A DNA stretch of 64,000 bases from Sulfolobus acidocaldarius SUSAZ (GTDB taxonomy: Archaea; Thermoproteota; Thermoprotei_A; Sulfolobales; Sulfolobaceae), in contig CP006977.1 of the NCBI GenBank assembly GCA_000508305.1, positions 962,621 to 1,026,620 of the forward strand. The letters run 5' to 3'. The translations under genes were made by a program, and so were the position numbers. Under the pieces are notes generated by a model, which was given only the letters and a program-made list of their open reading frames with translations, searched no databases and was not told where the DNA came from. Below, one piece after another: positions 43,689 to 47,089 of this stretch (within the stretch, counting starts at the first letter, position 1; each line of letters starts with the position of its first letter).

Positions 43689-44078
43689 TTAGATACTTTG
43701 CATTCTTTCCTCTAACTCTTTCTTTATCTGAGAGGCTAACGTCTCTAGATCTCTCTCCAGTTTCTCGTAAAGTCTCTCTCCATCTACCCAATATATATAA
43801 CTTGGTCTTCCCTTCTTTTTCTCTTCTCCTGCTTCCTCTTTCTCTCTTAAAATTAACCCTTTATCATACAGGTTATTAAGTGATTTATTTATAGATGCCT
43901 TACTGACCTTCAATACATCTGCAATTTCATCACTACTCATCCTTCTCTTTTGTGAGATAAGAACCTGTAATACATCAATATCACTTTTAGGCAAACCGTA
44001 GATAAATGATATTAGGTCACCCATGGTTACTTCTTTTCCACCTGGGAAAGACACTTTCATCTCTTTGCTCATAAGCAA
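43689..44078 (-). CDS. Lrs14-type winged-helix regulator (first of three)
   Basis: A 129-residue protein. VSFPGGKEVTMGDLISFIYG, then LPKSDIDVLQVLISQKRRMS, leads into the winged helix SSDEIADVLKVSKASINKSL, then NNLYDKGLILREKEEAGEEK and KKGRPSYIYWVDGERLYEKL, ending with a coiled helix for dimerisation. This matches the Lrs14 family, abundant in Sulfolobales and tied to biofilm and motility (recalled as Saci_1219). It diverges from the importer SBP gene at 44225, and both promoters lie in the 146 bp between them. Confidence 0.85.
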   Translation of the reverse strand: MLMSKEMKVSFPGGKEVTMGDLISFIYGLPKSDIDVLQVLISQKRRMSSDEIADVLKVSKASINKSLNNLYDKGLILREKEEAGEEKKKGRPSYIYWVDGERLYEKLERDLETLASQIKKELEERMQSI

Positions 44079-44203
44079 TATAAAGTTATTAAAAATAAAA
44101 AAACTTTACCTTCGATTTTTATAAAACTATACGTCAATTAATTAAATCGGCTTACGTTAATAATAGAGATAATTGAAACGAAGAGAAAAACTTTAAATAA
44201 TAT

Positions 44204-44216
44204 GGATAGCCTATCC
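44204..44216. promoter_or_regulatory. Palindromic operator GGATAGCCTATCC before the SBP gene
   Basis: A perfect odd-centred palindrome (GGATAG-C-CTATCC) lies between the TATA-like TTTAAATAATAT and the ATG of the SBP gene, ending exactly 8 nt before the start codon. A near copy stands in the same position before the permease gene. A protein bound here would cover the transcription start, so repression is the simplest reading. Confidence 0.7.
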
Positions 44217-44224
44217 TACTACAC

Positions 44225-45220
44225 ATGAAAACATCAAGTTTAGTCTCAATCCTTTTAATTATAGTTATTTTGGTTGGGATTTCTTTAACACTAATACATA
44301 TTAACAACACAAACCAAACACAAAAATCAGGCAGTACTAACACAACAACTAACATTGAAAAGCCGCGAATAGTTAGTTTAGCACCATCAGATACTCAGAT
44401 ACTAGTCTCACTAGGTTTAGGAAAGGATATAGTAGGAATGGACATATATTCTTATCAGTTACTCCAGACCTTGAATATGACTTCAATGATCCCCTCTAAT
44501 GTAACCGTGATATCCTCTGTTATTAACCTAAATATAACAGGAATTATAGCATTACAGCCTACTGTCGTTGTTTTAGAGTACGGATTAAGTGGAAGCTATA
44601 TCCCTCAACTGGAGAATGCAGGTTTGAAAGTACTTGTGACAAACAGTGACTATGCCTCGAACTTGGAAAACGTAATGAATACCATTTCTCAAATAGCAAC
44701 TTTCTTCAATGTTACAACTCAAGCAAATCAGTTAATTAAGTGGATGAACGAAAACATAGTGAGCTACCCACAAACAAATGTGTCTGTTGCATATTTTGAC
44801 TGGATAGATAGCGATGGAACGGCTTACAGCATAGGTAATAACGTGTTTATTAATGATTTAATAAACAGAGCCGGTGGATTCAACTCATTTTTTAACTTTA
44901 CAGGATATATTACAGTTACACCATCTCAAGTTTTACTTGCTAATCCACATGTAATAGTCGCACAGGAAATTTACAATTATTCCTATACCATTTACTTAAT
45001 ACACAAATATTTTAACGACACATATGCTGTCAAAAATAATCAAGTATACGTCATAACCGGTCTGGCTACTGATGTTATTGACGAGCCATCCATCTTATCT
45101 GTTTATGCTATTCCCTTATTTCATGATATAATAACTGGTGTACCTGTACCACACTACATTAACACCAACTGGTTTATGATTAAATTAAATATAACGTTGC
45201 CAATTTTTGACCAAAATTAA
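44225..45220 (+). CDS. ABC importer substrate-binding protein (BtuF/FepB-type)
   Basis: A 331-residue protein with an N-terminal membrane segment (residues about 7-25) followed by a Thr/Ser/Asn-rich linker (about 27-45), typical of membrane-tethered archaeal binding proteins. The rest is a two-lobe fold of the iron-complex/cobalamin type: RIVSLAPSDTQILVSLGLGK, then VVVLEYGLSGSYIPQLENAG, then INDLINRAGGFNSFFNFTGY and LLANPHVIVAQE. It captures a metal complex (siderophore, haem or cobamide) outside the cell. Several N-glycosylation sites are present. It precedes the permease and ATPase genes and has its own operator. Confidence 0.88.
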   Translation: MKTSSLVSILLIIVILVGISLTLIHINNTNQTQKSGSTNTTTNIEKPRIVSLAPSDTQILVSLGLGKDIVGMDIYSYQLLQTLNMTSMIPSNVTVISSVINLNITGIIALQPTVVVLEYGLSGSYIPQLENAGLKVLVTNSDYASNLENVMNTISQIATFFNVTTQANQLIKWMNENIVSYPQTNVSVAYFDWIDSDGTAYSIGNNVFINDLINRAGGFNSFFNFTGYITVTPSQVLLANPHVIVAQEIYNYSYTIYLIHKYFNDTYAVKNNQVYVITGLATDVIDEPSILSVYAIPLFHDIITGVPVPHYINTNWFMIKLNITLPIFDQN

Positions 45221-45429
45221 ACGAAAAACTTAATAAAAATTATAATATTTTTTCACACGTCCCACCTCTCTCTTATGAATGAGCCATCTACATAAAAAAT
45301 CAGTATTAACTTGACTTACGTAGTGCTCAAGTACTATTTCGCATAATATGTTGAAAACTTACATTACATGGTTTATTAGCCTCAAGAGAAAACCGCTGAA
45401 CTTAATAAAATGAGAAAATTTTATTATAT

Positions 45430-45442
45430 GGATAAGCTATCC
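45430..45442. promoter_or_regulatory. Palindromic operator GGATAAGCTATCC before the permease gene
   Basis: This 13-bp element (GGATA-AGC-TATCC) matches the one before the SBP gene in both half-sites and lies at the same distance, 8 nt before the GTG start at 45451. A T/A-rich promoter (TTTTATTATAT) precedes it. The two promoters therefore look controlled by the same regulator even though the genes are 230 bp apart. Confidence 0.7.
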
Positions 45443-45450
45443 ACATTATT

Positions 45451-46449
45451 GTGAAATCTACTAAATCAACGTATTTAAAGATCTTATTATTACTCATACT
45501 TCCTTTTACATCCCTTCTATTGTCACTGATATATGGAGACGTATATATTCCTCCTCATGAAATTCTACATCCCTCAAAGATTTACGGGGTAATACTTTAT
45601 GATATTAGATTACCCACTATAATAACGGCAGTCCTTATAGGAATAATCTTATCAGTATCTGGAAGTATAATGCAACATCTTTTACGAAATCCCTTGATAG
45701 ATCCTTATATAGCGGGGACATCGTCTGGAGGAGCATTCGGGGCAATATTAAGTTATTTCCTTTTGGGATTTAATTTACCTTTATCAGTAATGATATATTT
45801 CCAACCACTAGTAGCATTCTTCTTCTCATTTCTAGCCACAATAATAACTGTTCTAATGGGAAAAAGTAGAGGAGTATACGGGCTCATAATTGCAGGTGTA
45901 GTAGTATCATATATCTTCTCATCTGCCTATTCTATATTACTAGTATTACTTCAGGAAAAATACCCACAGATACCTCCAATCATTTTTTGGTTGATGGGGC
46001 AGATTACAGTTGTAGGCTGGTCACTAATTCCAGCCCTTACTACACTTACCCTAGTCCTTTTAATTTTAGCTTATAAAATGTCAAGAGCCTTAGATCTAGT
46101 ATCGATAAGCGACGAAATAAGTTACACACATAGTATAAGACCAAATAGATTTAGAATATTTTGGCTAGGTTTGATTAGCTTTGTTGTTTCCTTCACTATA
46201 CCCATAGCTGGAGTCATAGGGTTCATTGGAATTTTGGTTCCACATTTGGTTAGATTAAGTGTTGGAGGCGATATGAAAACATTACTCGTATACTCAAGTG
46301 GAGTAGGAATAACTGTTATGTTATTAAGCAACATAATTGCTAATGGAATGTTAGGAACTATAATCCCTTTAACCCCTATTCTCGCAGTAATCGCATCACC
46401 CTTTCTCATACTTTTCCTGGTGAGAAAAAATGATAGTGAAGGGGCTTAA
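45451..46449 (+). CDS. ABC importer permease, FecCD/BtuC family
   Basis: A 332-residue protein starting at GTG 45451 with about 9-10 membrane helices. Family hallmarks are DIRLPTIITAVLIGIILSVS and GSIMQHLLRNPLIDPYIAGT, GASSGGAFGAI-like TSSGGAFGAI, and near the end GVIGFIGILVPHLVRLSVGG, the cytoplasmic loop that contacts the ATPase. Together with the SBP and ATPase it imports a metal complex such as cobamide, haem or a siderophore. It overlaps the ATPase gene by 20 nt. Confidence 0.92.
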   Translation: MKSTKSTYLKILLLLILPFTSLLLSLIYGDVYIPPHEILHPSKIYGVILYDIRLPTIITAVLIGIILSVSGSIMQHLLRNPLIDPYIAGTSSGGAFGAILSYFLLGFNLPLSVMIYFQPLVAFFFSFLATIITVLMGKSRGVYGLIIAGVVVSYIFSSAYSILLVLLQEKYPQIPPIIFWLMGQITVVGWSLIPALTTLTLVLLILAYKMSRALDLVSISDEISYTHSIRPNRFRIFWLGLISFVVSFTIPIAGVIGFIGILVPHLVRLSVGGDMKTLLVYSSGVGITVMLLSNIIANGMLGTIIPLTPILAVIASPFLILFLVRKNDSEGA

Positions 46450-47089
46450 AGTTAAGTTAGGTAAGAAAATTGTTCTCGATAACGTAAATATTGAGCTAAA
46501 ACCAGGTATTACTGCAATATTAGGACCCAACGGGTCTGGCAAAACTACTCTGTTAAAGACAATAATCGGTATGATTGAACCAACTGAAGGCAAAGTAATA
46601 GTTAACGAGAATTTGTCATATTCTCCCGCAGAATTCTATACGGTAAATATGAAAACGATTGATGTTATCCTGGCTGGACGAAAGAAAGGGGAATACCAAA
46701 AATACATTGAACTATTTAACATAGCGGATCTTATGGAAAATGACTTTCAAAATTTAAGCTCTGGTCAAAAGAGACTGATCCTAATAGTAAAGGCTTTAGG
46801 CGAAGGAGACGTGGTAATAATGGATGAACCCTTTGCCAACTTAGATATGAAAAACAGGATAATTGTATTAGATGCCTTATTGAAATTGAAGAGTGAGAAG
46901 AATTTTATTATTACATCACATGAGCTAGAAGTTGTAAATTACGCAGATGAAATAATCTTGATAAAAAAAGGAAAAGTAGTATATTTAGGAAGTAAGGAGA
47001 ATATTAGCGACTTGATTCTCTCTGAAGTTTATGATGTGAGAATAAGATCTTTAGTTATAGCTGGAAGGAGATTCTTTTTCCATGAGTAA
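46430..47089 (+). CDS. ABC importer ATPase subunit
   Basis: A 219-residue ATPase with Walker A ILGPNGSGKTTLLK, Q-loop region, signature LSSGQKRL, Walker B VVIMDEPFANLD and switch His in ITSHELEVV. It is shorter than the usual 250 residues because the C-terminus is reduced. The ATG at 46430 lies inside the permease gene (20-nt overlap), so translation is coupled. It powers the FecCD-type permease. Confidence 0.92.
   Translation: MIVKGLKVKLGKKIVLDNVNIELKPGITAILGPNGSGKTTLLKTIIGMIEPTEGKVIVNENLSYSPAEFYTVNMKTIDVILAGRKKGEYQKYIELFNIADLMENDFQNLSSGQKRLILIVKALGEGDVVIMDEPFANLDMKNRIIVLDALLKLKSEKNFIITSHELEVVNYADEIILIKKGKVVYLGSKENISDLILSEVYDVRIRSLVIAGRRFFFHE

Follow-up and report, generated by a model that had tools for sequence, protein, structure and literature searches.

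The window analysed here is a stretch of 64,000 nucleotides from Sulfolobus acidocaldarius SUSAZ, and it carries the genes of a predicted importer. A btuF-like gene (44225..45220, + strand) encodes a substrate-binding protein of 331 aa, which matches Peripla_BP_2 (PF01497) with 56.5 bits, above the cut-off; its match to the BtuF model falls below the cut-off of that model. The btuC-like gene (45451..46449, +) has a GTG start and encodes a permease of the FecCD family of 332 aa (PF01032, 210 bits). It is overlapped by the btuD-like gene of the same unit (46430..47089, +), the product of which is an ATPase (ABC_tran, 68 bits).

Each of the two units is preceded by a palindrome. GGATAGCCTATCC (44204..44216, +) lies 5' of the btuF-like gene, and GGATAAGCTATCC (45430..45442, +) lies 5' of the btuCD-like genes. 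In the extended frame they read TGGATAGCCTATCCT (44203-44217) and TGGATAAGCTATCCA (45429-45443), respectively, the latter agreeing with the full consensus derived below. The gap between the end of the palindrome and the start codon (ATG 44225 and GTG 45451) is 8 nt in both cases. Upstream of each palindrome a TATA-like element may be recognised from the sequence: TTTAAATA (44192..44199, +) at the btuF promoter, which agrees with the TATA-like columns of 98 aligned sites, and TTTATTAT (45420..45427, +) at the btuC promoter, the position of which fits the profile of the same 98 sites. The coordinates of the palindromes, their 8-nt spacing and the presence of the TATA-like elements had been reported in an earlier note on this DNA and are correct. 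The two palindromes are the only exact matches to the motif in the window; with up to one mismatch there are six matches, compared with a mean of 2.9 in shuffled sequences.

The genome (2.06 Mb, one contig) was scanned for the pattern GGATAN3TATCC, with the reversed pattern as the control. Because there are seven exact sites and five matches to the reversed pattern, the motif count alone is not significant. Five of the seven exact sites, however, are placed at gene starts (binomial P about 2e-5), and all five precede B12 or cobalt genes, namely btuF, btuCD, bluB, the cbiX-C/H/D/T/L/F operon (in which CbiH, CbiD, CbiT, CbiL, and CbiF are encoded behind cbiX-C), and the gene for a NiCoT nickel/cobalt permease. 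The other two lie within unrelated ORFs. A genome-wide search had been set beforehand as the test on which the proposal could fail, and the motif proved to have a positional preference. Among the products of the site-bearing genes, BluB (5,6-dimethylbenzimidazole synthase) matches TIGR02476 with 248 bits (cut-off 150), the fused CbiX-CbiC protein matches NF004449 with 525 bits (cut-off 298), and the NiCoT permease matches TIGR00802 with 330 bits, just under the cut-off of 333. No site was found before cbiB or cbiG/E in this genome. The one-mismatch sites examined outside the regulon genes in this genome are all intragenic, and a regulator controlling its own gene is therefore not indicated.

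In bacteria, B12 riboswitches control a similar set of genes, comprising the btu importer, the cbi operon, cobalt transporters, and bluB. Since bluB, cbiX-C, and NiCoT share the site with the importer of the window, the latter is taken to be corrinoid-related, and the predicted operator marks this Peripla_BP_2/FecCD importer as corrinoid-specific, not as an importer of siderophores or haem. The earlier note had offered siderophores, haem, and cobamides as substrates; of these, the gene set of the regulon points to cobamides (or cobalt). Its proposal of a dedicated regulator for the importer holds in that a genuine operator is predicted, but this operator is not confined to one importer.

Conservation was assessed in 31 Sulfolobaceae genomes of 11 genera. 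An ortholog of btuF is present in all 31 genomes and has the site at its start in all 31, with 23 exact sites (G007 among them) and eight with one mismatch, so that the conservation before orthologous importer genes anticipated for a true operator was borne out. Where btuC is transcribed separately (G001, G007, G008, and G009), the same site lies upstream of it. The site is found at bluB in 25/25 cases, of which four (including L187) have one mismatch and the others (including L192) are exact. The head of the cbi operon has the site in about 20 of 22 cases, and the cbiX-C gene itself in 18 of 22; in G018 and in a contig matching G016 the operon begins with cbiG and the site is there, the cbi locus of G011 has no site, and G008 was left unscored in this count. 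A NiCoT copy with the site occurs in about 20 of 23 genomes, the copy in L220 being preceded by an exact one. Summed over the Sulfolobaceae, there are 255 sites versus 132 reversed-pattern controls (P 2e-10), compared with 92 sites versus 79 controls in the further families of the order that were sampled. In seventeen loci of 15-16 kb, 23 of 255 genes have a site, and these are at btuF, btuC, or the cbi heads with two exceptions, namely neighbouring genes in opposite or divergent orientation that share a site. The cbi loci of Vulcanisaeta contain no exact site. A spread to Euryarchaeota was considered for contig L345 (JAFMDM010000085.1), which bears that label, and rejected: the Sulfolobaceae genome G016 encodes an identical CbiX-C, and a taxonomic mislabel is probable.

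Alignment of 98 sites yields the 15-bp consensus TGGATARNYTATCCA, in which the outer T is present in 95% and the outer A in 93% of the sites. These outer T/A and the inner R/Y positions were absent from the search pattern, and thus provide independent support for the consensus. A/T-rich, TATA-like columns occupy positions -10 to -3 relative to the operator. On its other side, the box typically either overlaps the start codon or is separated from it by 0-8 nt; in the overlapping case, ATGGATAN3TATCC is read as M-D-x-L-S. In Sulfolobales the spacing from TATA to transcription start is usually about 26 nt, which puts the predicted start at or near the start codon and hence the box between TATA and start. 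As far as may be judged from the sequence, this is the position of a repressor operator, between TATA and a near-leaderless start and overlapping the region of initiation. Tandem copies occur 24, 27, and 29 bp apart (L142, L227, and L234/L239/L240) and 14 bp apart (L345), some of them flanking the TATA box, and suggest cooperative binding in some species.

The NiCoT genes exist in copies with and without the site. In a tree of the g4 and g6 sequences, the operator-bearing copies form one clade with a support of 100/100, and the operator-less paralogs fall outside it. The operator-less copy L230 (G015) adjoins an ORF which by eye resembles hypA, and such a neighbour suggests nickel rather than cobalt as its substrate. 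A further NiCoT gene (G024:C2:1884046-1885085) is broken into two parts, of which the second contains stop codons, and looks like a decaying paralog. The question of nickel or cobalt has been left open for NiCoT (PMC2667541); the copies with the operator are predicted to import cobalt, and the operator-less ones nickel.

Two further kinds of site-bearing genes were observed. An APC-type permease has the site at its start in four genomes of three genera (G004, G021, G024, and G027; loci L104:1226-2515, L128, L430:2489-3790, and L433). It has a weak AA_permease match and no NCBIfam match, and is a possible extra member of the regulon. In G002 (L445:2388-3290), an exact site directly precedes the ATG of an ORF the product of which resembles a second corrinoid-binding protein of the BtuF type.

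The sites observed, together with their conservation, their position, and the identities of the genes behind them, make it probable that the palindromes serve as operators in a vitamin B12/cobalt regulon which extends across the family Sulfolobaceae and would be under corrinoid feedback through a dimeric repressor. A putative dimeric DNA-binding protein would bind the consensus box between the TATA box and the near-leaderless start. When corrinoid (probably adenosylcobamide) is plentiful, this repressor would block the recruitment or the start of RNA polymerase; when corrinoid is scarce, import by btuF/btuCD, corrin-ring synthesis by cbiX-C, lower-ligand synthesis by bluB, and cobalt uptake by NiCoT would be turned on together. 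We infer that the box serves repression and not activation, that it is read by a protein and not by an RNA, and, from the gene content only, that the signal is a corrinoid and not free cobalt.

Other explanations may be weighed against the same data. That the palindromes are chance matches in an A+T-rich promoter context would agree with the exact count in this genome, which is near that of the reversed control, but the position of the sites, the identity of the genes, and the conservation in 31 genomes leave this explanation with practically no probability, and the conservation by itself has already refuted it. An inverted repeat near a start codon is also what would be expected of an RNA hairpin in the mRNA leader, acting as a riboswitch-like or translational element, and B12 genes in bacteria do use riboswitches. 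At most sites, however, the element has TATA 3-10 nt before it and the start codon 0-8 nt behind it, and this spacing places the predicted transcript start after the element, which argues against an RNA element. Moreover, the stem of 5 bp bears little resemblance to a cobalamin aptamer, and an Rfam search yielded no cobalamin riboswitch. The RNA reading is therefore considered very improbable.

Among proteins, the signal may be free cobalt, sensed by a metal-dependent repressor such as the single-copy DtxR-type protein, which would bind the palindrome with Co(II). One full-length DtxR protein is found in 31/31 genomes and is thus present wherever the operator is, a distribution compatible with its reading the box, and the inclusion of NiCoT in the regulon fits a cobalt sensor. 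DtxR/IdeR operators are likewise inverted repeats, and their core, TAGSCTA, is the centre of the present consensus; this was counted in favour of DtxR. In contrast, the outer half-site letters differ, the genes here are those of B12 and not of iron or manganese, and bluB and a corrinoid importer would be odd targets of a cobalt sensor. In addition, dtxR is located apart from the regulon genes and lacks an upstream GGATA site, a different conserved element being found there; a 2015 survey reportedly linked the DtxR protein of Sulfolobales to iron. On balance, DtxR appears an unlikely reader. A regulator encoded next to the importer and controlling only the importer would be an Lrs14 protein, the HTH-Cys protein (g4 and g9), or a double-wHTH Lrp-like protein (g5), all of which are favoured by their physical adjacency to btu genes. 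In the window an Lrs14 gene is divergent from btuF, and it belongs to a conserved block consisting of a small membrane protein, an MKVVKY protein, Lrs14, and the HTH-Cys protein (window 43689-44078, L406-L422). The HTH-Cys protein has 108 aa and a C-terminal Cys cluster, is a member of the block in many genera, and gave no confident match in Pfam or NCBIfam. This block, with Lrs14 and HTH-Cys together, lies away from btuFCD in g3, g5, g6, and g10; co-conservation of Lrs14 with the operator thus fails, and the adjacency in the window is an inherited neighbourhood rather than evidence. A characterised Lrs14 protein, furthermore, is a nucleoid protein which binds DNA without sequence specificity (PMC12529230), and the adjacent Lrs14 proteins, named in the earlier note as candidate regulators, are not supported by these comparisons. 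A member of the HTH-Cys family adjoins btuCD in g4 and g9, but the family is associated with Lrs14 and not with btu, and none was found in g1, g2, g7, g8, and g11, though operators are present there. The double-wHTH Lrp-like protein is encoded directly next to btuF in g5; as a general regulator it was rejected, because g1, g4, and g9, which have operators, lack any member of its clade. A neighbour-encoded regulator is thus largely refuted, and its probability is low indeed.

For a corrinoid-responsive repressor, the reading preferred here, the kind of system is known already, as archaeal B12 boxes and a CblR regulon have been predicted before. A comparative-genomics paper of 2003 is said to have reported that some archaea possess a CBL-box as the target of a hypothetical B12 regulator, and this box may already cover the Sulfolobaceae element. 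The archaeal CBL-box and the CblR of RegPrecise likewise concern a DNA box before genes of cobalamin biosynthesis and transport with a hypothetical regulator, whereas here the box, its position, and the gene set are defined for the Sulfolobaceae. In a passage drawing on RegPrecise, a cobalamin regulon is predicted for Pyrococcus furiosus with its regulator given as 'unknown', and ThiR and RbkR are named as predicted regulons (PMC10746257). The latter two are archaeal vitamin-biosynthesis regulons under DNA-binding proteins, as is proposed here, but for a different vitamin. The bacterial AdoCbl riboswitch (B12-element) regulon comprises the same kind of gene set, and nickel/cobalt transporters preceded by riboswitches have been described (PMC2667541). 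In contrast to the riboswitch, the element found here is a short palindrome in the DNA, situated before the predicted start, and has no Rfam match.

No fused enzyme-HTH protein linked to the B12 regulon was found, and no experimentally identified archaeal B12 regulator was found in the literature searched. It is quite possible, and put forward tentatively, that the reader of the box is a new archaeal corrinoid-sensing transcription factor outside the known B12-sensor families such as CarH. As a fixed operator of 15 bp stands in front of the same genes in 31 genomes, and Sulfolobus is genetically tractable, the regulator can be tracked down directly there. If the reader is indeed such a new factor, the Sulfolobaceae would control their B12 supply by protein-DNA repression through an orphan regulator.
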